This document shows positions 1,174-21,951 of a DNA stretch of 31,940 bases, in pieces (position 1 is the stretch's first letter; every line of letters starts with the position of its first letter). Origin of the DNA: a virus; IMG/VR virus record IMGVR_UViG_3300030450_001613, positions 1 to 31,940 of that record. One strand, given 5' to 3'. Below the pieces are notes generated by a model. That model was not told the DNA's origin, did not search any database, and saw only the letters and a list, made by a program, of their open reading frames with translations. The translations under genes were made by a program, and so were the position numbers.

Positions 1174-1670
1174 AACACCCACCCTTGAAACGTTGTATCT
1201 TTATCGGGGTGAATATCTTCATTACTGTTTGTATTATACTCTGGATAATCTTGTTGGTTATGCACCATAAACTCAATAAATCTTTGTGTATAATATTCAG
1301 CAAATTCTCGTTCTTTATTGATTAAAAAATCAACTTCTTCTTTGCTTACACTTTCTGCATTTTCTGATATGTGTTTAAATACACCACCATTTTTTACACT
1401 ATATGCAGCAAAAGGTAAATATTCAACATTCGCCCAGTGTATTAACATAGGCGTAACGTAAGTGTTTTTAAGCGTAAGGTATGTGCCTGATAATGTTCCT
1501 GCAATTATATCACTTTGTAATTTATTATATAAATCAGTTCCAAGATAGTTTCTAACGTGTATTTCTTGTGCGATTTTTACATATTGTATATACTTATCTG
1601 TATCAATATTGCCGTCAAGTATTGTGTTTTTGACTAAATCAGTTCGTGTTAAAAATAGTGCTGTTGCCAT
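1170..1670 (-). CDS. Head-tail connector-like protein (DUF6712-type)
   Basis: 166 aa, mostly helical. Features such as LFLTRTDLVKNTILDGNID near the start and the YLGTDLYNKLQ segment resemble the DUF6712 family found next to portal genes in Bacteroidota phages, where a neck or connector-ring role is assumed. It begins one base inside the portal stop codon and ends in an ATGA overlap with the tiny basic gene. Function is inferred from family resemblance and from lying directly downstream of portal. Confidence 0.6.
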   Translation of the reverse strand: MATALFLTRTDLVKNTILDGNIDTDKYIQYVKIAQEIHVRNYLGTDLYNKLQSDIIAGTLSGTYLTLKNTYVTPMLIHWANVEYLPFAAYSVKNGGVFKHISENAESVSKEEVDFLINKEREFAEYYTQRFIEFMVHNQQDYPEYNTNSNEDIHPDKDTTFQGWVL

Positions 1671-3412
1671 TATCTTTTATATTTATATCCTTTATCTGCT
1701 CTATCTATCGGTCTTTGTGCTACTTGTTTTGGCTCGCCTTTTTTTCCAAAACCTTTGTTCGGTGGTTTAATACCTTTTGTTTCTCTTTCTTGTTTGTACA
1801 CAGGTTTAAATTCTTGGCCTTTGAACATAAAAGTTTTTCTTAAAAAATAGTGATGACAATTTGCACCACCTTTGTGCAACCATATATTATAAGACTTTTC
1901 ACCTTTAGCAGCAAGCTCACCATTTGCGGTACTGTTTTTATTTAAATCTTCTTTGCGATAAATTTTTCTTGATTTAACCATTTTTCTACAAAACTCTCGG
2001 CTATTATTTTTTACGCTTAAAGGTGCATATTGATAACGTACTAAAAATTTCTCACCCTCTTTTGTTTCACCATCTAAATCACTATCACCCCTCGGCCTAC
2101 TTTTTGGAACAGTTGCTAGACTTAGCATTTTGTCTAATACTTCTTCTTGTTCATAATCAACAGGCCTTTCATCTACAAGTTCATAACCCATATCTAAAAG
2201 TTCTTGTTCATCTTGGCCTAGACTTTCTAAACTTTCTACCATTTTGAGGTCATCAAATTCTAAGTCAGAACTCATTTTAACGCCTGTTTCTTCCTCTCTA
2301 GTTTCTTTGTCGGTAACATTTGTTAAGTCAGTAAATTCTAATGGCTGTAGCGTCTTAAAATAAAGATTTAAACTTATATTGTTAAATGATAATATCTGGT
2401 CAAAAGCATCTATAAGTATATCTTGGAATGGTCTAATAGTAGTATTGTCCGTTAATATACTAGCTGTTTTTAATTCGTCTGCATTATTACCTAACCCTGT
2501 TTGGTCTTTAATACCAAATAACATAGGCGATACTATTCTGTGACTAACCAATATTTTTTTACTGCTTTCTTCACTCAAAAACTGGTATTGATTATGTGCA
2601 TCGTTCAATTGTATTGGCTCTATATTTGCTTGTGTATCTGCATTATCGTTAAAAGCTAAAATAAATTTACCACTGTTACTTGACCCTGAAAACTTTTGAT
2701 AAATTCTTTGTTCTATTAATGTACGTTGTTCCTCAGTTGGTGTGCCATTGTTAAAGTTGATTAACATACTAGGTGCTAAACCTTGCTTAATATTGGCTAA
2801 ATGATAGTTTGCTATTTCTTCTTCAAGTTCCGCATACTGTAAACCACCTTGATAATCAACTGGTGAGTAATAAAAATATCCTGCTTTGTATGGTTTAATA
2901 TACATTAACTCAATAGCTTCTTTAGATTTACCAAAACAAGGTATTCTTAATGGCTCATCTTTTCGTGTTATATTTTTCCAATCCTCAAAATAGTAATATG
3001 CTTCAATCTCACCATCATCATTTGCTTTTTCTGCCCTTAACGTTTCTACTGGTAAGTGTTCTAATTGTGCAATAGTTTTCCTATCTTTTGAATATATTAT
3101 TTGTACAGCACATTGTCCTAATAGTTTATAATCATATACCAATTTTCGTACTACATCTTTTTTAAATAAAGATACCATTTTAGCATACTCATCAGTTTTG
3201 GTATCACTATCAGTTGCATCTAATCCGTGACCGTAAATCATAGCTGATATACCATTTATTATAGCATTATTCGTAGGGCTGCCGTTGTACCTATCTATAA
3301 TGTATTCAAAATAATTATTATCCTCACCGTAGGACACCCAGTCTTGGTGCTTAACTTCTTTAATTTTTGGGCTAGCATAATTGCTTAAATTAACAATACT
3401 TATATCACTCAT
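1670..3412 (-). CDS. Portal protein with C-terminal Cys/His extension
   Basis: 580 aa. Residues 1 to about 370 match the phage portal fold: an N-terminal WVSYGEDN segment, a NAIINGISAMIYG segment near 49-61, and a long central region ending with the helix that carries GLGNNADELKTA near 306-317. The portal forms the dodecameric DNA gate at the capsid vertex. Residues about 455-530 are a separate domain with NSREFCRKM (C475) and GGANCHHY (C519, H520, H521), which could bind zinc. The last 40 residues are Lys/Arg-rich. The gene overlaps the upstream 115-aa gene by 4 bases. The portal call is firm; the function of the extension is unknown. Confidence 0.85.
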   Translation of the reverse strand: MSDISIVNLSNYASPKIKEVKHQDWVSYGEDNNYFEYIIDRYNGSPTNNAIINGISAMIYGHGLDATDSDTKTDEYAKMVSLFKKDVVRKLVYDYKLLGQCAVQIIYSKDRKTIAQLEHLPVETLRAEKANDDGEIEAYYYFEDWKNITRKDEPLRIPCFGKSKEAIELMYIKPYKAGYFYYSPVDYQGGLQYAELEEEIANYHLANIKQGLAPSMLINFNNGTPTEEQRTLIEQRIYQKFSGSSNSGKFILAFNDNADTQANIEPIQLNDAHNQYQFLSEESSKKILVSHRIVSPMLFGIKDQTGLGNNADELKTASILTDNTTIRPFQDILIDAFDQILSFNNISLNLYFKTLQPLEFTDLTNVTDKETREEETGVKMSSDLEFDDLKMVESLESLGQDEQELLDMGYELVDERPVDYEQEEVLDKMLSLATVPKSRPRGDSDLDGETKEGEKFLVRYQYAPLSVKNNSREFCRKMVKSRKIYRKEDLNKNSTANGELAAKGEKSYNIWLHKGGANCHHYFLRKTFMFKGQEFKPVYKQERETKGIKPPNKGFGKKGEPKQVAQRPIDRADKGYKYKR

Positions 3413-3792: not shown

Positions 3793-3822
3793 AAAAAAAA
3801 AGGGTAACTTTTGCTACCCTTT
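3793..3822 (-). terminator. Rho-independent terminator
   Basis: On the minus strand AAAGGGTA pairs with TACCCTTT (8 bp; the inner G-T and C-G pairs can extend it to 10), and a run of nine T follows. It ends the transcript that covers the tail-tube gene and the 39-aa gene. The plus strand has no comparable T run, so it acts in the minus direction. Confidence 0.85.
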
Positions 3823-4083: not shown

Positions 4084-4608
4084 TTAATTTACCTCTAATT
4101 GTGCGCCATTAATTTCAGGTGTTAATACACCAGGCTGAACAAAATTAGGTGGTGCTGTTTCTTGTGCTGTAAATGTCAATGTAAAACCTGAAAGGTCGCC
4201 CATTGCTGCACCAGTTACAATCGTGCCACCAGTTAAGTCTGCGCCATTTTCTAAGCCAACCATATAATATCTATCATCATAACCCTCAACGACTATATGT
4301 GGTCTGCCTACTGCAATTAATTTTATTTCTTCTTGCGTTGCTCTATCTAAAAAAGGTAAAGTAATATTAAGAACTGATTCATAGAAAGTTGTACCATTTT
4401 CTCTACTTGTGGTAATGGTAGTTTCTAACGAATTAGCACCTTTTAATTCATACTTAAACCAATTTGTTGAGCCTGACATATCGGTTATTTCACCGACAGT
4501 CAACGTAATATCTCCTAAAGTTCCAAAGTCAGCGAAATAAACATTTCTTATTCCACCTACACCAGACTTACAGGGTACTTTACGCCCAGTTGTTAAATTA
4601 CAAGCCAT
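4084..4608 (-). CDS. Major tail (tube) protein
   Basis: 174 aa. It starts MACNLTTGRKVPCKSGVGGI, and has WFKYELKGANS (about 50-60), ENGTTFYESVL near 70, and GLENGADLTGG...GAAMGDLSGFTLTFTA toward the C-terminus. These features match a tail-tube-like family common in Bacteroidota phages, in which many copies stack to form the siphovirus tail. It lies just after the capsid terminator and has its own terminator 260 bases downstream. Position next to the capsid gene is consistent. The tail-tube role is inferred from resemblance; a head-decoration role is the main alternative. Confidence 0.65.
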   Translation of the reverse strand: MACNLTTGRKVPCKSGVGGIRNVYFADFGTLGDITLTVGEITDMSGSTNWFKYELKGANSLETTITTSRENGTTFYESVLNITLPFLDRATQEEIKLIAVGRPHIVVEGYDDRYYMVGLENGADLTGGTIVTGAAMGDLSGFTLTFTAQETAPPNFVQPGVLTPEINGAQLEVN

Positions 4609-8618: not shown

Positions 8619-10211
8619 TTATTTTGGTTTTTTTGGATGTTTACTAGGTAATAAATCAAAATCGCCAGTATATTTTTTATTTTGAGGCCTGCCGTTTTTA
8701 ACTAAATATAAAAAAGCATTAACCCTAGCTTGCGCCCATTGACTAGCACTACTAACTTTTCGTGAATGGCCTACATTAAAAGCACCTAAACCTCTTTGAT
8801 AAACAGCCCTTAACATACCAACAGTTACGCCATATCCTAATTTTTTCTTGTATCTTTCGTTAAAATCATCACTTTTTTTTTGCAATATTTCGTTGTCTCT
8901 TTTAGATACTTTTGCACTTCTTGTATTACCTGCATCACCTTTTGCTGTTCCTTGCCCTTTTGGGTTTCTATTTGGGCCACCTCTGGGTGCTTTAGGCGAT
9001 TTTACAATACCACCTCGTGGACCAATTTTAGCTGCTTTAACGCACTTATGTTTTTTGTAATCTTTTTTATATCCTTTAGGGCATTTATATTTTTTAAATT
9101 CTTCTACACTCATATTGTGTTTTTCACAGGGCATATACCATTTTTTACCCTCTAATTCGTGTATATGAAAACCATTACAACCCATATCATTACTTGCTTT
9201 CATAGCCGCATCAACTGTACTATATGCTAAACGATTATCAATTATGGCAATTTTATCGTTTATAATTTTTGTGATAGAATCTTCTTGTAACTGATTTAAA
9301 TCTCTAAGTTTTTTTCTAGCCCATCTTTTTCCTGCTAAACCACCCCATAATAAATATGAAATAGTTCCACAAGCATCAGATTTATCAGGGTCATAATAAG
9401 TTTCAGCCCTACTTAAATAACTGTACATTCTTTTAATTGTGTCCACAGTAACTTTACCGCCCTTTGCTAAAGTTGCTGCCCTAACTTTACCTACCTGTGT
9501 AGCACATTTATTTTTAACTTTTGCATTTAAATCAATACCCTTTTGTGCATTATTAGAAACTGCATCAGGGTAATCGTTATAACTTTGCAAAGTAATTTTA
9601 TCGCCTGTTATAATTGCTTTTAACTGCTCAACAATATGTTTTTTTTCTTCTTCTTCAATTACACTTAGCTCATCTTTAACGCCTTTTTCTTGTGGTTTTT
9701 CAAATTTATCTGCAAAATACCCCTCTATACTAAAACCTTTTACAGCACCCGTTTTTACAAACTCATTCCAAACTTTATCAGAATTAACTTTAACAGCACC
9801 TACCCAAGTGCCTAGCGGTAAATCCATATCATACATTCTACTTTTATCGTGTACTTTATCTTCAACAATCCAACTTTCTACAAGGGTTAGACCTTTAAGT
9901 GTATGTTGGTGTTCAAGTGTTGCATTATTTTGATTACCTGCGCTTAGAAACTTTTGACTTGCAGTTTTGACTGTATCACGACTGAAATAAATATAATATT
10001 CTTGGTCTTTTGTTTTACGATAAATCGGTTTGTTCGGCACAAGTAAAGCACCAACTAACAAGCGTTGCTCTTTATCGATTTCAGCTAATTTAAATTCTTT
10101 ATCTTTTAAAGCGACAAAATCTTCTTGTATTGCGGGTGATTCTACGAGTGATATCGCTTCAATCCCGTTAAGCTCATCATTTTCATCAATGATTAATTCT
10201 ACTATTTTCAT
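8619..10211 (-). CDS. Prohead protease (XkdF/S78-2-like) fused to accessory domains
   Basis: 530 aa, much longer than a stand-alone prohead protease (about 200 aa). Residues 1 to about 172 are protease-like: GIEAISLVESPAI near 17-29, ATLEHQHT with H101/H103, GTWVGAVKV, and KGFSIEGYF with candidate nucleophile S161. Residues about 208-303 form a second domain with C235 and C281 and an LWGGLAGKRWARKKL end. About 328-392 hold Cys/His clusters (CNGFHIHE, PCEKH, KYKCPKGYKK, KHKCV). Residues about 440-522 match a DUF5824-like domain (RGLGAFNVGHS...QWAQARVNAFL). Prohead proteases cut scaffold and capsid during maturation. Five-prime placement before scaffold and capsid fits; the roles of the added domains are unknown. 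Confidence 0.75.
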   Translation of the reverse strand: MKIVELIIDENDELNGIEAISLVESPAIQEDFVALKDKEFKLAEIDKEQRLLVGALLVPNKPIYRKTKDQEYYIYFSRDTVKTASQKFLSAGNQNNATLEHQHTLKGLTLVESWIVEDKVHDKSRMYDMDLPLGTWVGAVKVNSDKVWNEFVKTGAVKGFSIEGYFADKFEKPQEKGVKDELSVIEEEEKKHIVEQLKAIITGDKITLQSYNDYPDAVSNNAQKGIDLNAKVKNKCATQVGKVRAATLAKGGKVTVDTIKRMYSYLSRAETYYDPDKSDACGTISYLLWGGLAGKRWARKKLRDLNQLQEDSITKIINDKIAIIDNRLAYSTVDAAMKASNDMGCNGFHIHELEGKKWYMPCEKHNMSVEEFKKYKCPKGYKKDYKKHKCVKAAKIGPRGGIVKSPKAPRGGPNRNPKGQGTAKGDAGNTRSAKVSKRDNEILQKKSDDFNERYKKKLGYGVTVGMLRAVYQRGLGAFNVGHSRKVSSASQWAQARVNAFLYLVKNGRPQNKKYTGDFDLLPSKHPKKPK

Positions 10212-10228: not shown

Positions 10229-11860
10229 TTATCCAATACTTGCTGATTCTATAATATTTCTGTCTAATGCTTGTGCTGTACTGACATCATCTGAAACTAC
10301 AAACGCCTTAACTGGTTGCTGTTGTTGCCCTGCTAGTGTTTCTGCTAATTGGTTTTCTGGTGCTTGGCCAACTACATTAAATGCAGGTGGTGTACTAGCA
10401 ACTGTTGGTGCTGAAACGCTTGGCGTACTTCCTCCTCCGCCAGCACCCATACTTTGTGATGCTTGTTTTGCTTTGCTAATAGCTTTGACCATACTAAGTG
10501 CTGTTGCCGCTGCTTGTCCAACTGCTATTGCGGCAGGTATACTATTTAAAGGTGGCGGTGCTGATGCAAATGCTTTACCAATACCTTTAACACCATCAGA
10601 TGCCGATTCTGTTGCATTCATACTGACTCGTGCTATCGCAGCTTGTGCATTTATTATTTGTTCTTTTAAAATTAGTGACTGTTTTGCTAAAAATAATGCT
10701 TTACCTATTGCTGTTTCTTCCCCTACAATAGACATATACAAATCAAAGGTTTGGTTTCTAGCATCTCTAATTGCTTGTTCATTTGCTGCAGCTTCTTCTG
10801 CTTTAGTTCTTTCTAAATCAATACCCTCTTGTATTAAAGCATTTTCGTTAATTAATTGTTCTGACCTAAAACCTGTTACAGTAGCTTCAACATCAGCGAG
10901 TTCCATTTTGGCATTAATTAAAGCAATTCTATTTTCATCACTTTTATTCAAATCAAAATTTGCTTGTGCCGCATCAAGTGTTGCTTGTGCATTAGCTTTC
11001 ATTTTTTCTTCTTGTTTATCTAATATCTCACCTAGTTTTTGGTTTGCTTTTATTCTGTCTGCTATACTTGCAGTTGTGTCGTCTCTAAGTTGTCTTTGTT
11101 TTTCTGCTTGTTTATCAAAAGTCTGTAATAATAATGCGTTTTCTGCTGCTGCAACTTCTGCTGCTTTATTTGACTCTGTTTGTGCTTCTGCTTGTTTTAT
11201 TACACTTTTTGTATATTCTTTTACACTTTTAATTGTTTTTTGTATAGTCTTGTCAACCTCAGCTGTTTCCTCTTTGCTACCTACAATACTTTGTCCTAAA
11301 TCTACAAATGCTGCTTTTGCTGTATCAGCAGCACCTGCAAAATCTAATTTAAATAATTTAACTACAGAACTAGCTAATCCACCTAAACCAGATATAACAT
11401 TTTTAATTCTTGTTACTAACTCAACACCTATCGTATAAGAAAAATCTTTGACTGCTTTTAAAGTACCTGACCCAAAAATATTGTCAAAAAAACCAGATAT
11501 TTTATTACCACTTCCTAAAACTAAATTTATAAAATCATTGAAAGCAATATTTAGTGCATTATTTGCAGTTGTAAAAAAATCAATAGCTGTTTGATTTCTT
11601 GTAAGAACGTCTGCTAATTTAGCAAATGCAGCAATAGCTAATCCAATACCAGCATTTTTAAGTGCATTACCAAAGGCCTTAGTTGCTTTACCTAAACCAG
11701 TCATACCTTTACTTAATGACCTAGTAAATAAAGTGCCTTTTTGTTTATTTTTATCGGTTTCTTTACCTGTTTCTTTTAACTTTTTATTTAGTGCATCTAC
11801 AGCTTTCTGTGCATCTTTTGTTAAAAGTTCTAATTCTGCTTGTATTGTTTTCTTTGCCAT
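10229..11860 (-). CDS. Tail tape measure protein
   Basis: 543 aa. The N-terminus is helical (ELELLTKDAQKAVDALNKKLKE), followed by a hydrophobic Gly/Ala segment near 60-85 (GNALKNAGIGLAIAAFAKLA), long coiled coils rich in Ala, Glu and Lys (about 195-365), and a C-terminus ending SDDVSTAQALDRNIIESASIG. That C-terminal signature is common in Bacteroidota phage tape measures. The protein sets tail length; at about 0.15 nm per residue the tail would be near 80 nm, short for a siphovirus. Its start overlaps a 53-aa gene by 31 bases. Confidence 0.8.
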   Translation of the reverse strand: MAKKTIQAELELLTKDAQKAVDALNKKLKETGKETDKNKQKGTLFTRSLSKGMTGLGKATKAFGNALKNAGIGLAIAAFAKLADVLTRNQTAIDFFTTANNALNIAFNDFINLVLGSGNKISGFFDNIFGSGTLKAVKDFSYTIGVELVTRIKNVISGLGGLASSVVKLFKLDFAGAADTAKAAFVDLGQSIVGSKEETAEVDKTIQKTIKSVKEYTKSVIKQAEAQTESNKAAEVAAAENALLLQTFDKQAEKQRQLRDDTTASIADRIKANQKLGEILDKQEEKMKANAQATLDAAQANFDLNKSDENRIALINAKMELADVEATVTGFRSEQLINENALIQEGIDLERTKAEEAAANEQAIRDARNQTFDLYMSIVGEETAIGKALFLAKQSLILKEQIINAQAAIARVSMNATESASDGVKGIGKAFASAPPPLNSIPAAIAVGQAAATALSMVKAISKAKQASQSMGAGGGGSTPSVSAPTVASTPPAFNVVGQAPENQLAETLAGQQQQPVKAFVVSDDVSTAQALDRNIIESASIG

Positions 11861-15313: not shown

Positions 15314-15919
15314 TTATCCTGTTATTTTAACATTTGCTGCAATGTAATTATCTGTTATTGTATATATAAATGGCAAAACACCTGCAAGACTATAATTGTA
15401 AAACAAATATTGTGTATAAGGAAATTTAACATTTATTGTTACTGTACTATTAGCACCCGACAAAGTGCCTGATTGACTAGCATTACTACAATCGGTATAG
15501 CTATATACTAAATTTGATACTGAACTAATACCGCTAAAGTTAAATAGTTTTACGGCTTGACAAGTAGGCGTGGCTGCTGCTTGTGTTACTTCAATTTCAC
15601 AAGTATGCGAACTAGCATTATATCCGCTTGGTAAATTAAATGTAACTCTTATATTTACTTGGGTAGCTTCAAATACAACTGGGAATGATGTAGCACCGCT
15701 TGTTGTTGTAGTGGCTGTTCTAGTCAAAGTTGCCCCGCTTATTTTATCTGTAATTGTTCCATTGACTATTGTTCCTGCTGCATTAACACTAAATCCAGTA
15801 AAGTCTGCATAACGACCATATATATTAGTTTCAAAACATTCGTATGCAGGGTCAGGTGGGTTTGCAGTTGATGTATGCTTAATTGTGTACGGGCTTCTAG
15901 CAAATATTAAATCACTCAT
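15314..15919 (-). CDS. Tail protein with ARSPY N-terminus and one Ig-like repeat
   Basis: 201 aa. The N-terminus MSDLIFARSPY is followed by one Ig-like unit (about 28-113: YECF...FTGFSVNAAGTIV...LPSGYNASSHTCEIEVTQ). The unit matches the repeats of the 785-aa protein. The remainder (120-201) is beta-rich. The gene ends 1 base before the micro-ORF start and overlaps the upstream gp10-like stop by 1 base. Likely an exposed tail-tip or adhesin component. Confidence 0.6.
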   Translation of the reverse strand: MSDLIFARSPYTIKHTSTANPPDPAYECFETNIYGRYADFTGFSVNAAGTIVNGTITDKISGATLTRTATTTTSGATSFPVVFEATQVNIRVTFNLPSGYNASSHTCEIEVTQAAATPTCQAVKLFNFSGISSVSNLVYSYTDCSNASQSGTLSGANSTVTINVKFPYTQYLFYNYSLAGVLPFIYTITDNYIAANVKITG

Positions 15920-16437
15920 TAGTCAACTTTATTAGGTAAAAATTCTTGTAAATCTAGTTCAAATTGTTTTTTAATTTCTTCACTTAAATTATTAAATGCT
16001 TTTTCAAAAGGCCTTGTAAAAAATAAACTGGGTTTAATGCCTTTGTTATAAATTGCACGAGATATAATAAATGACATACTTTGATATGACATAAATCTAC
16101 CCGCATCATCTTGGAATTGAAAGCGTTTACGTTTCAGCCATTTTAAAATACCATCTCGTAAACCACCTTTTTTTCCTGTTCCTGTTCCAAATCTAAATGG
16201 ACTTGTTCTATTTCTTGTTGAACTTTTTGCACCTCTAACTCCTTGGTCAACAAACATACCGTAATCTGTCATATAAAATTGCACAAATATTCTATCTGGC
16301 TCACCCTTAACAAAATAATCTAAACTTTTATATAATGCGCCACCTGCTTTTTTTTGTCGTGTTAAATTATTCTTGCTAAACTTAATGACGTTTTTAGCAA
16401 ATAAATTTAAAGCAAATTGTACGTTTTTTAGTTGCAT
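15919..16437 (-). CDS. HK97 gp10-like neck/tail protein
   Basis: 172 aa, basic. A helical N-terminus (LNLFAKNVIKFSKNNLTRQKK) is followed by YFVKGEPDRIFVQFYMTDYGMFVDQGVRG (about 47-74), with the DYGxFVDQG core typical of gp10-like proteins that link head completion to the tail. The C-terminus is helical. It overlaps the upstream tail-completion gene by 10 bases. Confidence 0.6.
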   Translation of the reverse strand: MQLKNVQFALNLFAKNVIKFSKNNLTRQKKAGGALYKSLDYFVKGEPDRIFVQFYMTDYGMFVDQGVRGAKSSTRNRTSPFRFGTGTGKKGGLRDGILKWLKRKRFQFQDDAGRFMSYQSMSFIISRAIYNKGIKPSLFFTRPFEKAFNNLSEEIKKQFELDLQEFLPNKVD

Positions 16438-16901
16438 ATATCTATATCATTAGGTATTAAAATATCCATTGTCAATGCCCAACCACTTACAGCATTTTCA
16501 AATCTATCTACAAAAGGCTCACAAGTAGGATTGCCATCTAATTGGTATAAGTTTCTATTTAGCGTGCCTTTCCTTAATATCTGCACTAATTTATTTTGTA
16601 CTGCTAATTGTGTATTTAGCACATCGTGTTCATTATTATTACCCCTAAATTGGTCTGTAGTTTCTGACTTAGAAGTATCAACAATATCCATACTTATAAC
16701 ACTAATAGAAAAACGCACTAAATTTTCTTCAAGATTTGCACTGTTTACTATTATATGTGACAACGGGTATATAGTAGCCTTGTTTAAATCAATATCAGTG
16801 ATATCACCTGTCGTTACAGTATTTACATTTGGGTCTAATAATAATTGTGATTCTATTTGTTCTGTTATTAAATAAAACCCCCTTGCACCTTTGTTAGCCA
16901 T
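16428..16901 (-). CDS. Tail completion / terminator-like protein
   Basis: 157 aa. Segments such as LLLDPNVNTVTTGDITDIDL (about 20-39), LSHIIVNSA, MDIVDTSKSETTDQFRGNNN, VLNTQLAVQNKL and PFVDRFENAVSGW form a pattern I recognise from flavobacterial phage neck and tail genes. Size and alpha/beta layout fit a tail-terminator (gpU-like) ring protein. Its ATG lies within the last codons of the frameshifted product of the upstream gene (8-base overlap), which supports coupled translation. Confidence 0.6.
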   Translation of the reverse strand: MANKGARGFYLITEQIESQLLLDPNVNTVTTGDITDIDLNKATIYPLSHIIVNSANLEENLVRFSISVISMDIVDTSKSETTDQFRGNNNEHDVLNTQLAVQNKLVQILRKGTLNRNLYQLDGNPTCEPFVDRFENAVSGWALTMDILIPNDIDICN

Positions 16902-17633
16902 TTTGTTTTCTTTTTATATTTTGTTTTTCTAATAAGTTTTTTTCTTTTTCAAACATTAAAAAATTTAAACATTTATGTACATTTAATTTAGTGATATTTT
17001 CAAGTTGTCTAATATCCCCTTTAGATAACCCATATAAACTGGAGTACCATCCCCATCTAACTCCGAATTGATATACTGAACTAACTGATTCTCCTGCTTC
17101 TCCGTTAAATAAGCTATCATAGTTTTGGACAAGTCGTTCCCTAAATGATAAAAAAAAAGTATAGAGCCCATTACAGCATCCATCGGCATATGCAATAAAT
17201 TATCATCTAGTTTAGCTTCATATTCTTTTATATTATACAGGTCTTTGTTCTGTGTTTGTATAGGCCTATATAAAACCGACATCGCTTTGTGCATATTATC
17301 CCAGCTAGTAAGATATGTATCTAAATCTACATACTCGCCAAATGTCATCTCATCTAAATTAGGTATAAAGCCATACCTTATACCTCTAACTCTGATAACT
17401 CTTTGTAAATCACTTTTTTGTGTCATAATATTTTTTAACATTTCTACAATAGCATAGGCATCGTTTACTTTTAATCCTTTAACAATATCAGCTGAAACAT
17501 TACAAAATATTTCAATCATCTTCATACCGATAACGTTGTCATCATTTGTTGATTCCTGCACTTTAAGAAATCTTTGATATTGATGTAATGTAATGTCAGA
17601 TAATTCTTGCGGTACATTTATGTCAATCTTCAT
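16894..17633 (-). CDS. Predicted -1 frameshift product of the chaperone gene (246 aa)
   Basis: Residues 1-161 come from the zero frame. At the nine-T run (17150-17158) a -1 shift gives a further 85 residues, ending at 16894. The extension contains RWGWYSSLYGLSKGDI and LNVHKCLNFLMFEKEK, which read as a real conserved domain: helix, WGW core, helix. It has no usable start codon of its own, so it can only be reached by frameshifting, or by an indel in the run. It fills the 81-base gap before the next gene and stops inside that gene's start. In the overlap the zero frame has unusual G-ending codons, which are first bases of the other frame. Confidence 0.7.
16983..17633 (-). CDS. Probable tail-assembly chaperone, short (zero-frame) form
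   Basis: 216 aa. It has IDINVPQELSDITLHQYQRF near the start, GIRYGFIPNLDEMTFGEYVD (about 105-124) and NMHKAMSVLYRPI (133-145). The C-terminal part (162-216) overlaps a second open frame. Helical, acidic, adjoining the tail block and carrying an overlapping -1 extension, it resembles lambda gpG, which pairs with gpGT to chaperone the tape measure. It does not lie directly beside the tape-measure gene as gpG does, so the role is inferred. ACGTTATAT precedes the ATG by 4 bases. Confidence 0.6.
   Translation of the reverse strand: MKIDINVPQELSDITLHQYQRFLKVQESTNDDNVIGMKMIEIFCNVSADIVKGLKVNDAYAIVEMLKNIMTQKSDLQRVIRVRGIRYGFIPNLDEMTFGEYVDLDTYLTSWDNMHKAMSVLYRPIQTQNKDLYNIKEYEAKLDDNLLHMPMDAVMGSILFFYHLGNDLSKTMIAYLTEKQENQLVQYINSELDGDGTPVYMGYLKGILDNLKISLN
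17150..17158 (-). promoter_or_regulatory. Slippery T-run for -1 frameshifting
   Basis: Minus-strand CTTTTTTTTTATC holds nine T and so contains the canonical T TTT TTT heptamer in the zero frame (CTT TTT TTT TAT). Both frames are open on either side for 50 or more codons. A homopolymer indel would have the same effect, so this is the key place to check reads. Confidence 0.65.
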
Positions 17634-17660: not shown

Positions 17661-18821
17661 TTATTGAATAGCATATTTACCAAAATTTGGCTTGCTTAAT
17701 ATATTAAAGGTAGCGTATCTTAATGAATCTAACAAATGGTTATTTCTATCAATAGGTATATTAGTTAGTTTACCTGTTTTATCTTCACTCCATTTATAGT
17801 TTCTAAATTCTTGTATAAGGTTTTGACTGTTAGGGGTTACAAATAATTTATACCTTTTTAATAAATCAATGCCTGCAATAATACTATCTCGCCCTTTTTT
17901 TGTAGGCCTAATATTCCAACCAGTTCTTCTTAAATAATCATTTAATCTTGGCTCACTACTATCACTATATATAATTTTATCGCCTACATTAAGTATTTTA
18001 AAATGTGAATGTATATCCTCGGCCGTCATCATAGTTTTATAAAGATGTTCTTCGATATATAAATTGTGCCCTTTTTTATATACTGAAATATGTGCTGTTG
18101 GGTCATTGGTATATCCATAGTCAACGCCCATAGATAAAAACTCAGCATCTTCTGGTATGTTACTTTCTTGGTAATTAAATATAGTGGCTTTACTGATACC
18201 TTTTTGGCCTAAGCCATATATTTGCCAATACTGAGGGTCAGTTTCTTTTAATCTTTCTATTTCTTTTATTAGGGCTTGTTCTAAAAATGTATTGTCTTTA
18301 TAAGTTGTTATATAAAAGTCTGCATCATCTCTAGTTATAACTTTGTCATATATCCAACTATATTCATCAGATGGGTTGTAATCTAATATTATTTTTTGAT
18401 TAGTTCTGAATAATAACTGTTGCCAATCTTCAAAGTAAAGTTCGTTAGCTTCGTTTATAAAAAGCACATCTCTTTTTCTACCCCTTACTTTTTGTGGCTC
18501 ATCTAAACTTATAAATTCTACAAGATTGTTGTATAAATTATATTCGCTTGATGATTTATTGTGATTTATTTCATTATACATTTTATGTGTTTTAAGTATA
18601 TCAAAAAAATCACGCATTACAGTTGCTCTTAAACTGGGAAAACTTTTGCGACAAATTGTAATTATTTTACCTGTGTTTTGTGTGCAAAAACTAAATATTA
18701 TCCATAATAATATATTATACGTTTTTCCAGAACGTGTACCGCCTTGCTCAACTATAATTTTTTTTTGGCTTTTTAAAAGGTGTTTAAAAACTACATTAGT
18801 CTTTATCTTCATTTTTTTCAA
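17661..18821 (-). CDS. terL: Terminase large subunit
   Basis: 386 aa. N-terminal packaging ATPase: Walker A GGTRSGKT (27-34) and Walker B RDVLFINE (117-124, E124 catalytic). C-terminal RNase H-like nuclease: D234 (GVDYGYTNDP), D287 (IYSDSSEP) and D365 (NNHLLDSLRY). With the portal it drives DNA into the prohead and cuts at the end of packaging. Its start overlaps the small subunit by 26 bases. Length is slightly short but all motifs are present. The ATG at 18821 is followed by a second ATG three codons later, so the exact start is uncertain. Confidence 0.95.
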   Translation of the reverse strand: MKKMKIKTNVVFKHLLKSQKKIIVEQGGTRSGKTYNILLWIIFSFCTQNTGKIITICRKSFPSLRATVMRDFFDILKTHKMYNEINHNKSSSEYNLYNNLVEFISLDEPQKVRGRKRDVLFINEANELYFEDWQQLLFRTNQKIILDYNPSDEYSWIYDKVITRDDADFYITTYKDNTFLEQALIKEIERLKETDPQYWQIYGLGQKGISKATIFNYQESNIPEDAEFLSMGVDYGYTNDPTAHISVYKKGHNLYIEEHLYKTMMTAEDIHSHFKILNVGDKIIYSDSSEPRLNDYLRRTGWNIRPTKKGRDSIIAGIDLLKRYKLFVTPNSQNLIQEFRNYKWSEDKTGKLTNIPIDRNNHLLDSLRYATFNILSKPNFGKYAIQ

Positions 18822-19167: not shown

Positions 19168-19971
19168 TTATTTTTTATTAAAACCTGCTAAGGGATAAAA
19201 TATTAAACTATTCCTGTAAGCGTCTGCATTATGTTTAATAATTTTTGTAACTCCGTGAATATTATACCAAGCGGGATAAACTAACATACTATTATTAGAT
19301 TGCTCAAAAGTATGTTTAAAATCTGGTACTGATAATGCACCCCCCTCTGTATCTTTTCTTTTAGTTAATATTACATTTACAGTATCTTTTAAATTGCCTT
19401 TGTCTTGATGATACGGTGCTGCAATATTAAAGTTGGATATACTACTGGTAAATAAATTACCAAATCTAAATTCTGGTAAAGTGTTTTCTTCTATAAGTTT
19501 TTTTTGTATTTTGTATTGTTCAGGCATATATTGTTTAATTAATTTTTCGCTTTCCAAACAAGATAGTAACATCGCTTTTATAAATGTTTTAGCTTTTGGA
19601 TTTGTATGCACACTTGATACAGAATTATAAGGTCGCCTTAAATGTGCTTTTGCTAACACTGCACCAAGTATTGTACTCATCTGAGGAGTGCCTAGTGCTT
19701 TAGCTTGTTTTCTTGTTATGCCTAATTTTTGTTGTAGCTTATAAATATCAGCTCGTTCTAATAAACTTTTAGGTACATTATTGCTTAAAAATTCTTTATT
19801 AGCTATTGTAATGTATTGCTTTAATTTGTCTGGTAAATCTGTCAAATAAAATCCAATTATTTTGTTTTCGTGTTTTAATAAACAGCTTTCAGTTATTGTA
19901 GGAGGTATAAATTCACAACGCTTTCCTATTCTTATATTATGTTCGTGTTTTTTAAGTTCTAAAATTTTCAT
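19168..19971 (-). CDS. TET/JBP-type 2-oxoglutarate/Fe(II) DNA-base oxygenase
   Basis: 267 aa. The C-terminal half holds the jelly-roll catalytic set: H188 and D190 (PYHQDKGN), a TVNVIL strand, GGALSVPD (210-217), H239 (NIHGV) and R253 (YRNSLIFYP), which would bind 2-oxoglutarate. In TET/JBP enzymes this centre oxidises the methyl group of 5-methylcytosine or thymine in DNA to a hydroxymethyl. The N-terminal 160 residues are mostly helical, possibly DNA-binding. It overlaps the TET-associated-type glycosyltransferase gene by 4 bases, so the pair is coupled. Another 2OG oxygenase (protein or small molecule) is the alternative, made less likely by the neighbour. Confidence 0.75.
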   Translation of the reverse strand: MKILELKKHEHNIRIGKRCEFIPPTITESCLLKHENKIIGFYLTDLPDKLKQYITIANKEFLSNNVPKSLLERADIYKLQQKLGITRKQAKALGTPQMSTILGAVLAKAHLRRPYNSVSSVHTNPKAKTFIKAMLLSCLESEKLIKQYMPEQYKIQKKLIEENTLPEFRFGNLFTSSISNFNIAAPYHQDKGNLKDTVNVILTKRKDTEGGALSVPDFKHTFEQSNNSMLVYPAWYNIHGVTKIIKHNADAYRNSLIFYPLAGFNKK

Positions 19972-20720
19972 ATTTTACTTTTATCAACTAACCTTAACTC
20001 TGGATGTCCTGTGCTTTTTCTAAAATACATTTCACAATAATTAGGAAACATATTTTTAATACGCTTTATGTGGTTAATCATATATTCAGATGTTCTAATT
20101 TCTTGCAAACCACCTTTCTCTCTAAAATAATTAGATTTCGCAGTTATATAATCAAACCTAAGCAATTTTTTATTTTTTATGTATTGCCTTATACTATATT
20201 CATAATCTTCGCCGTGATTCGTTTGTCTTTCTAGAAACGAATCGTGTTCTATTATAACGCCAAACATACTAGCAATTATGTAACTTAATTTAGTATAATA
20301 TCTTTTTTTCATAAAATAAGCATTTGAAGCAGCATAAATTCCAAAAGTTTTAGCACCTATTTTTTCGCATAATTCAAATCCTTTTAGTATAAATTCTTTT
20401 TCTAAATCTTTGCATTTTACTAATTGTGTATCACTTACTTTAACCATCACTTGCTCTAAGTCATCATCAAACATCATTAATCTAGTTCCTTCTTTATAAT
20501 ATTTTTCTATAAAATTCCTTTGAGCACCAATAGTCAAAACTCCTACTACAATTTTGTATTCATTCTTTAAAGATTCTTTATATAATTTTTCTTCCTCTTT
20601 ATTTGCTACAAATATTTTAATCCTCTTTTTATCAATATTATACTGTTTTAGCATTTTAAGAGTTTTGTCTTTAATTGTTTCATACCGTTTGTATGAGGGG
20701 ATTGCTATTTTATAATCCAT
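19968..20720 (-). CDS. TET-associated-type glycosyltransferase (GT-A fold)
   Basis: 250 aa. The sequence begins YKIAIPSYKRYETIKDKTL (3-21), has IKIFVANKEEE (34-44) and VVGVLTIGAQRNFIEKYY (58-75), and the acidic metal-binding MFDDD (83-87). That arrangement fits the TET-associated glycosyltransferase family from phage base-modification clusters, related to the enzyme that glucosylates hydroxymethyluracil to make base J. It would transfer a sugar from a nucleotide-sugar to the hydroxymethyl made by the neighbouring oxygenase. Donor sugar unknown. The gene follows the second transferase after 3 bases. Confidence 0.75.
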   Translation of the reverse strand: MDYKIAIPSYKRYETIKDKTLKMLKQYNIDKKRIKIFVANKEEEKLYKESLKNEYKIVVGVLTIGAQRNFIEKYYKEGTRLMMFDDDLEQVMVKVSDTQLVKCKDLEKEFILKGFELCEKIGAKTFGIYAASNAYFMKKRYYTKLSYIIASMFGVIIEHDSFLERQTNHGEDYEYSIRQYIKNKKLLRFDYITAKSNYFREKGGLQEIRTSEYMINHIKRIKNMFPNYCEMYFRKSTGHPELRLVDKSKI

Positions 20721-20723
20721 AAT

Positions 20724-21398
20724 TTATATTACTTTTTTCAAATTATAGTGTTTATTTTTATTTACCCAAGTATTCAGTTTATAATCCTCAATATAGTAAT
20801 TTTCTTTATTATCATTTGACCATTTTGTATATACAAGTTTTAAGGGTTTATATTTAGGAAAGACTTTTTTAATAAATCTTGCTAAAAATTTTGGTCCAGT
20901 AGTTTGTAAAACAAACCTACCTTTCCACGTATTATAAATATCTATTTCTTTTTTTTCATTATAATTTTTTACACAATATTTCATTACGTGTTTCCACAAT
21001 TCGTGCCCTTTAATAACTCCCATAAAATCATTTTCTATAAAACTGTAGTTCGGTTTGACATATCTTATATTATGGAATACTTTTGTATTATTAATTAATG
21101 AATCTAAGGGTTGTAAAATAATCATATCAAGGTCTATATAAAAACCTCCGTATTTATGTAATATACAAAACCTTACAAAGTCAATCCTTTGAATATCATA
21201 TCTTAAATCTTTATAAAATTTTAAATAAGTATTATATTCATTTTTTATTAATTCTAAAGAGGTTTGCTCATTCCAAAGAATATATTTAAAACCCTTTTGA
21301 CTAGAACAATTTAGATGGCTTCGATAAAAAAATTCTTGTTCTTCTAATTTTTTGTCGTATAAATTAAAATAGATTTGATGTATAATTTTAGGAATCAT
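20724..21398 (-). CDS. DxD sugar transferase (Gly_transf_sug / OCH1-like)
   Basis: 224 aa. It starts IPKIIHQIYF, has RIDFVRFCILHKYGGFYIDLDM (71-92) with the D89-x-D91 metal site and conserved Arg/Asp residues, and ILQPLDS. This is the Gly_transf_sug (GT32-like) family, which transfers hexoses from nucleotide sugars. In this cassette it may extend the first sugar on DNA or act on another surface. The start overlaps the ParB-fold gene by 11 bases. A cell-surface glycan target cannot be excluded. Confidence 0.7.
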   Translation of the reverse strand: MIPKIIHQIYFNLYDKKLEEQEFFYRSHLNCSSQKGFKYILWNEQTSLELIKNEYNTYLKFYKDLRYDIQRIDFVRFCILHKYGGFYIDLDMIILQPLDSLINNTKVFHNIRYVKPNYSFIENDFMGVIKGHELWKHVMKYCVKNYNEKKEIDIYNTWKGRFVLQTTGPKFLARFIKKVFPKYKPLKLVYTKWSNDNKENYYIEDYKLNTWVNKNKHYNLKKVI

Positions 21399-21951
21399 AC
21401 TTTTGCATAGCTTTATAAAATAATTCAGACAAATTAACTTCTTTAGCTTTTAATTCATCATAAAGAGTTTTAATCATTTCAAATCCTTCAGCTGGATATT
21501 CTAATATAATAGATTTTTTAGTTTGTTGATACATCGTGTCTATTTCTTTGTTTAAATCAATATCATCTAATATACTGTAATCTACATTTTCATCAGGTTG
21601 CCATACATTCAATCCCCAATCATTTAATTCTTTATTATCCCAATCATTAGCCAATATATCCCAATCCCAATCACCAAAACTTATATTATCTTTAATTATA
21701 AATTTTTCTTTTTGTTCTTTAGTCCAGTTGTCTGCCTTAATTATTGTAACTTGTTTTAATCCTGCTTTTTTGCAGGCTTCTAATCGCATATTGCCACCTA
21801 ACACTACAAAATCTTCATCTACAACGATAGGCCTTTTATCTAACATTTCTGGGAAATCTTTTATACTTTGCACCAATTTTTCAAACTGATTGTCTTTTAT
21901 TATCCTAGGATTATTTGTGTTTAATTTAATTTTGTTTATATCTATTTTCAT
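21388..21951 (-). CDS. ParB/sulfiredoxin-fold protein
   Basis: 187 aa. The N-terminal ParB-like domain has the NPRIIKDNQFEKLVQSIKDF start (14-33), PIVVDEDFVVLGGNMRLEACKKAG (41-64) with the GGNMR nucleotide-binding core, and VTIIKAD. Asp/Trp-rich segments follow (WDWDILANDWDNKELNDWG). ParB folds can hydrolyse CTP or act as nucleases; in phages they often sit beside DNA-modification genes. It overlaps the 56-aa gene (ATGA) and the sugar transferase, so it is part of this operon. Its exact role here is not visible. Confidence 0.75.
   Translation of the reverse strand: MKIDINKIKLNTNNPRIIKDNQFEKLVQSIKDFPEMLDKRPIVVDEDFVVLGGNMRLEACKKAGLKQVTIIKADNWTKEQKEKFIIKDNISFGDWDWDILANDWDNKELNDWGLNVWQPDENVDYSILDDIDLNKEIDTMYQQTKKSIILEYPAEGFEMIKTLYDELKAKEVNLSELFYKAMQKYDS

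Follow-up and report, generated by a model that had tools for sequence, protein, structure and literature searches.

The window analysed here, 31,940 nucleotides of viral DNA, carries on its minus strand a gene with two overlapping reading frames, located directly downstream of the gene encoding the terminase large subunit, TerL (17661–18821, minus strand; Terminase_3, 1.3e-21). The zero frame runs from an ATG at 17633 to a stop at 16983 on the minus strand and encodes a 216-amino-acid protein, the ‘G’ form, with the ORF being kept at full length in relatives. Codons 159–162 of this frame read CTT TTT TTT TAT, yielding a run of nine T’s at positions 17158–17150 of the minus strand that includes the heptamer T_TTT_TTT. 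The conserved N domain (residues 1–161) is followed by a dual-coded tail of 55 residues (YHLGNDLSK...LKISLN). The -1 frame is open from 17199 to 16894, and past the T run it comprises 85 codons (LSFRERLVQNY...RWGWYSSLYGL...KRKQNG; the ‘T’ part, 16894–17151 on the minus strand including the stop). Its stop at 16894 overlaps by 8 nt the ATG (16901) of the next gene, which encodes a 157-amino-acid protein (16428–16901, minus strand). The first ATG of the -1 frame comes late, at ‘LMFEKEK’ near the end, and the T part, being without a start codon of its own, would be reached after slippage. In relatives, the T part is characterised by the motif GWYxSIYxLxxGD...CLxxLxFxKEK.

The original prediction, which left the strand unstated, had described a zero frame open for 55 codons past the T run to 16983 and a -1 frame of 85 residues that contains RWGWYSSLYGL and LNVHKCLNFL, lacks a start codon and ends within the start of the next gene; our reading of the locus agrees on each of these points. 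It had also remarked that zero-frame codons in the overlap often end in G, and we do find G at the third position of 31% of zero-frame codons in the overlap (16983–17151, minus strand), as compared to 17% upstream of the T run. Further A/T homopolymers of nine or ten are located in the window at 3793, 8873, 18758, 22419 and 25632. When read on the coding (minus) strand, the one at 3793 is a T9 between genes and the other four are A runs, leaving the T9 of the dual-coded gene as the only intragenic T run of nine on the coding strand of the window.

The gene order TerL, dual-coded gene, and then genes for proteins of 157, 172, 332 and 751 amino acids is kept in relatives. The 157-amino-acid gene is syntenic in 142 of 145 lineages, and TerL is found upstream on the same strand in 116 of 145 (119 lineages have more than 1.8 kb of upstream sequence). 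Within this otherwise syntenic block, a gene for a beta-rich 201-amino-acid protein (15314–15919) is present in only 3 of 145 related lineages and is an accessory insertion.

A search with the zero-frame protein yielded 354 relatives in viral contigs, and all 80 of those that were retrieved have the full zero frame (clipped by the contig end in some), the T run and a long -1 frame. Further searches, for which the queries were the -1 tail, an alignment of distant members and one distant member, together with a single scan of genomes from bacteria and archaea, enlarged the set to 327 loci. Using N-domain and T-domain profiles to locate the halves, we found both in 321 of the 327 loci, which represent 146 lineages less than 90% identical, 85 less than 70% identical and 24 less than 50% identical. 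Of the six loci without a located T domain, five are cut short by the end of the contig and the sixth is the outgroup L331. In all 321 loci with both halves the T domain lies in the -1 frame and the join falls at a run of at least nine T’s: T9 in 289, T10 in 30 and T12 in two. Neither a T7 or T8 at the join nor an in-frame fusion of the halves was detected in any of the 321 loci.

Homopolymers of nine are error-prone on some sequencing platforms, and the original prediction had named as its alternative a sequencing or assembly indel that breaks up what is truly one long frame. This is refuted by the conserved -1 relation, and we consider it next to impossible: the same frame relation recurs in 321 loci and in two isolate genomes, the T10 and T12 relatives still hold the T domain in the -1 frame with no in-frame fusion, and the zero-frame tail is itself conserved. 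Long homopolymers are also hypermutable, and the presence of two alternative open C-termini would suit a phase-variable (contingency) locus at which slippage of DNA replication toggles between them in the population. A contingency locus should, however, often show the two halves in one frame, while none of the 321 contigs does so, and changes in run length are always balanced such that T stays in the -1 frame; we therefore reject phase variation as very improbable. The dual coding with a -1 shift at the nine-T run, as originally proposed, extends to every relative with both halves located, outgroup L331 excepted.

The arrangement is also found in isolated phages. Nonlabens phages P12024S and P12024L, which we take to be siphophages, share with the window an identical 25-nt core, ATACTTTTTTTTTATCATTTAGGGA, and have the T domain in the -1 frame, with the proteins being ~27% identical to that of the window and the zero-frame tail being shorter. 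In these two genomes the halves correspond to genes 38+39 and 40+41, annotated as separate, unrelated hypothetical proteins, and fall into PHROGs 32199 and 38404, both labelled as of unknown function. Furthermore, a 320-kb contig of a Flagellimonas onchidii isolate has the same T-run/-1 arrangement, with the copy presumably residing in a prophage, and the distant relative L333 has a T10 at the join with the T domain in the -1 frame. Across the 85 lineages the zero frame extends 24–82 codons past the T run. The +1 frame meets a stop two codons past the run in 73 of 85 lineages; we do not count this as evidence, since the residues encoded in the other two frames largely dictate it.

Comparison of the two frames in relatives, which the original prediction had called for, argues that both are coding. 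Synonymous codon shuffling of one frame rarely leaves the other open (p at most ~0.07 and mostly below 0.01 per phage, in a sample of 33 phages less than 90% identical). Between close relatives, codon positions 1, 2 and 3 are substituted at rates of.07,.03 and.244 before the run and.034,.07 and.103 in the overlap; coding in the -1 frame only would make the middle position the fastest, and coding in the zero frame only the third. We also classified 1726 differences in the overlap from 132 close pairs; since the pairs share lineages, these are not independent events. Over-representation is 10.7-fold for changes silent in both frames, as compared to 1.27-fold for those altering the zero-frame protein only, 1.67-fold for the -1 protein only and 0.66-fold for both, and no new zero-frame stop was found among these differences. 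Relative to doubly silent changes, zero-frame-only changes amount to ~0.12 and -1-only changes to ~0.16. The excess of doubly silent changes and the rarity of single-frame ones indicate that each frame of the overlap is under purifying selection, of similar strength in the two. As judged by comparative sequence analysis, the gene has two genuine frames with the T domain in -1 and a maintained minimum of nine T’s, and its programmed -1 recoding is real and widely conserved.

How the -1 frame is reached can be rationalised at the level of either RNA polymerase or the ribosome. In the former case, transcripts with the templated nine U’s would be translated in the zero frame to give the 216-amino-acid form. 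In a minority of transcripts RNA polymerase would add one U (or drop two) at the T9, bringing the T domain in frame and giving a 246-amino-acid form, such that the two proteins would share the 161-residue N domain and differ in the C-terminus. Slippage by bacterial RNA polymerase is efficient in vivo at nine A/T, the RNA-DNA hybrid being 9–10 bp (PMC5009743), and when every homologue keeps a run of nine T’s, its use for purposeful slippage is very likely (PMC1088944). Here, a homopolymer of at least nine is kept in all homologues except L331. In the latter case, the ribosome would shift to -1 at T_TTT_TTT in the manner of lambda G/GT and P2 E/E+E’, and the two products would be unchanged. Consistent with this, T_TTT_TTT lies in the zero frame at every site with at least nine T’s, and known tail chaperones use ribosomal shifts (PMC5009743). 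The T’s in excess of the heptamer would then be required by the flanking residues, hydrophobic before and aromatic after: the usual flanking codons encode V, I or L before the run and Y or W after it, and once the heptamer is fixed, an NTT codon before and a Tyr or Trp codon after suffice to produce a T9 from amino-acid constraint alone.

This confounding is broken by the register-shifted lineages, and only by these. The run reads TTT TTT TTT CTG in L085, L213, L220 and L230, TTT TTT TTT GCT in L327, GAT TTT TTT TTG in L184 and CAA TTT TTT TTT TCA in L333, and in all of these lineages it still totals nine or more. TTT is the preceding codon in all 5 cases with a next codon that starts with a base other than T, and in 6 of the 140 others (Fisher p 9e-7, and 4e-5 at the 70% level, with relatedness not corrected for); in L184, where the preceding codon is GAT, two T’s are present downstream. 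On the N-domain tree, the register of the run changes at least seven times, and a T9 in another register (the L085 group, L327 and L184) appears in three separate places. A ribosomal heptamer needs seven T’s, and a run length kept whatever the codons points to slippage by RNA polymerase. For the ribosomal reading, it is harder to accommodate that three independent lineages have moved register and still have nine T’s, with, for example, Asp before or Ala after the run, and that T7 and T8 are absent from 321 sites.

Two further observations bear on the mechanism. No unusual RNA structure flanks the T run in the 85 lineages (mean folding z of +0.19 for the 80 nt downstream and -0.05 upstream, against -0.14 for the control); a downstream structure is common, if not universal, at -1 ribosomal sites, and its absence speaks against a ribosomal shift. 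In 560 other genes from the same loci (414 kb), T runs of at least nine are absent where synonymous shuffles predict 6.6, and A runs of at least ten are absent where ~12.5 are expected. This depletion is modest, supporting evidence only, since runs of 5–8 in these genes are also about a quarter below expectation. Overall, polymerase slippage at the T9 fits the comparative data better than a ribosomal shift at T_TTT_TTT and is the likely mechanism, and we infer both the polymerase level and a product ratio set by it; ribosomal shifting, alone or alongside polymerase slippage, is possible, and we hold the purely ribosomal account, including its explanation of the extra T’s, to be the main rival, though the less probable one.

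The outgroup L331 (4859–5667) is the only located exception to the rule of at least nine T’s at the join. Its N domain is clear (E 5e-23), its T-domain match in the -1 frame weak (E 0.009), and instead of a long T run it has A_AAT_TTT at the homologous place, with the zero frame ending 7 codons later. The presence of such a site in a deep relative favours the ribosomal account. The overhang is like those that we measured on the records of lambda and P2, 6 and 7 codons respectively. This single case suggests that a conventional ribosomal site is the older form and the T run the younger, the long overhang being particular to the T-run clade. We lean slightly towards a scenario for this large clade of phages, mostly associated with Bacteroidota and of marine or freshwater origin, in which polymerase slippage would set the tail-chaperone ratio and would have taken the place of an L331-type ribosomal heptamer. 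The overhang would have been recruited as a second functional C-terminus, leaving roughly 25–90 codons with a double coding role. As a side observation, the Flavobacterium phage 6H protein AGN89393.1 (L172:10352–10927) is a distant fold homologue with T_TTT_TTC near its end. We rejected it as a clean recoding joint because its -1 frame meets a stop at once and no joint can be assigned; a long unannotated -1 ORF follows it before the next gene.

The original prediction had called the gene a tail-assembly chaperone following the logic of lambda G/GT. The two-product recoding pattern stands, with two products from one start by retained recoding predicted in 321 of 321 loci; the maintained minimum of nine T’s in any register, however, points to polymerase slippage. 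The lambda pair divides its work between the G part, which attaches to the tape measure protein, and the T part, which brings in tail tube subunits (PMC5009743). By analogy, the common N domain would bind the tape measure protein, as does gpG, and the -1 encoded T domain would recruit tail tube subunits, as does gpGT. As in the lambda pair, a common N part is combined with a minor -1 product bearing a C-terminal T domain, and the -1 stop overlaps the start of the next gene. In contrast, lambda recoding is carried out by the ribosome, its zero frame extends 6 codons past GGGAAAG (our own measurement on the record) rather than the 55 of the window gene, and G/GT lies between the tail tube and tape measure genes, whereas the window gene follows TerL. 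P2 E/E+E’ is likewise a tail gene recoded to -1 at a T-rich site (T_TTT_TTG), although with six T’s, a zero frame ending 7 codons past the site and an adjoining tape measure gene. A zero frame that stops soon after the site of the shift, as it does in lambda and P2, is not seen in the 85 lineages of the T-run form. Nor does the window gene lie directly upstream of the tape measure gene, a location that is typical of G/GT, if not strictly defining. As originally noted, the gene is far from the tape measure: our candidate for the latter (10229–11860, minus strand; 543 amino acids, helix-rich with hydrophobic stretches; phrog_21537, virion structural protein, 8.8e-17) starts ~5 kb downstream, after five genes. 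The candidate major tail tube protein (4084–4608, minus strand; 174 amino acids), proposed from its sequence character, falls into phrog_19091, labelled as of unknown function.

Structure prediction gives further hints. In the AF2 model of the zero-frame protein, residues 1–160 mostly have a pLDDT of 80–95 and the tail (183–216) is below 50, while the AlphaFold model of the -1 tail alone (pLDDT 56) is too poor for fold searching. Foldseek of the zero-frame model against BFVD returned many uncharacterised phage homologues and few named matches, all weak, mainly a tail assembly chaperone (E 0.05), a tape-measure chaperone (0.29) and a tail assembly protein (0.43). We found no match of the gene to a chaperone family in Pfam or PHROG, nothing meaningful in a fold search of the PDB with the zero-frame model, and no match in an hmmsearch of PDB sequences with the alignment of the fusion. 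The lack of a chaperone family match, and the location directly after TerL in most relatives rather than after the tail tube gene, would suit products that are recoded as described and serve elsewhere, for example as a head-tail or packaging factor. We consider this unlikely: a recoded pair with a common N domain and an alternative end, encoded among structural genes, follows the G/GT pattern, and the few named weak Foldseek matches are mainly to tail assembly and tape-measure chaperone proteins. From the architecture, the siphophage relative, the candidate tape measure and gene neighbourhood, and the weak fold hits, we infer a G/GT-like tail assembly chaperone, that is, a gene which probably works like G/GT and which we do not file as a proven member of the chaperone family. 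For the model as a whole, two products made by slippage with a G/GT-like role, we estimate a probability of about 0.6.

Recoding in tail chaperone genes is a textbook case of ribosomal frameshifting, and in the literature that we searched we found no description of a tail chaperone made by transcriptional slippage. The closest parallels for the run itself are genes expressed by transcriptional slippage: Thermus dnaX (9A), Shigella mxiE (a run of U) and IS elements (9A/9T) likewise use a run of nine A/T and gain a second product from the alternative frame, although none is a phage tail gene. In Thermus dnaX, slippage gives the shorter product (PMC1088944). A -1 recoded tail gene pair is therefore of a known kind, and what is new is the T9 form with its likely polymerase slippage. 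If this is true, one and the same regulatory output has passed from the ribosome to RNA polymerase in a single homologous gene, for which L331 displays the ribosome-type site. The sharp nine-T threshold over hundreds of phages offers a natural data set on polymerase slippage that is ready for testing. The doubly constrained overlap of 55 codons is unusually long for such a site. Furthermore, annotation misses the second product, as both the isolate phage records and PHROGs list the halves as unrelated unknown proteins.

Finally, several other genes of the window deserve mention. The protease (8619–10211; Peptidase_S78_2) exceeds its Pfam match by an extra C-terminal part, DUF5824, and the portal protein (1670–3412) similarly exceeds its Pfam match with an extra C-terminal part. 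On the minus strand, 19168–21951 encodes in a row a TET/JBP oxygenase (2.3e-9), a TET-associated glycosyltransferase (TAGT, 1.9e-15), a DXD glycosyltransferase (3.2e-16) and a ParB-like protein, likely constituting a DNA hypermodification cassette; the TET/JBP protein is labelled as queuine tRNA-ribosyltransferase by PHROGs.
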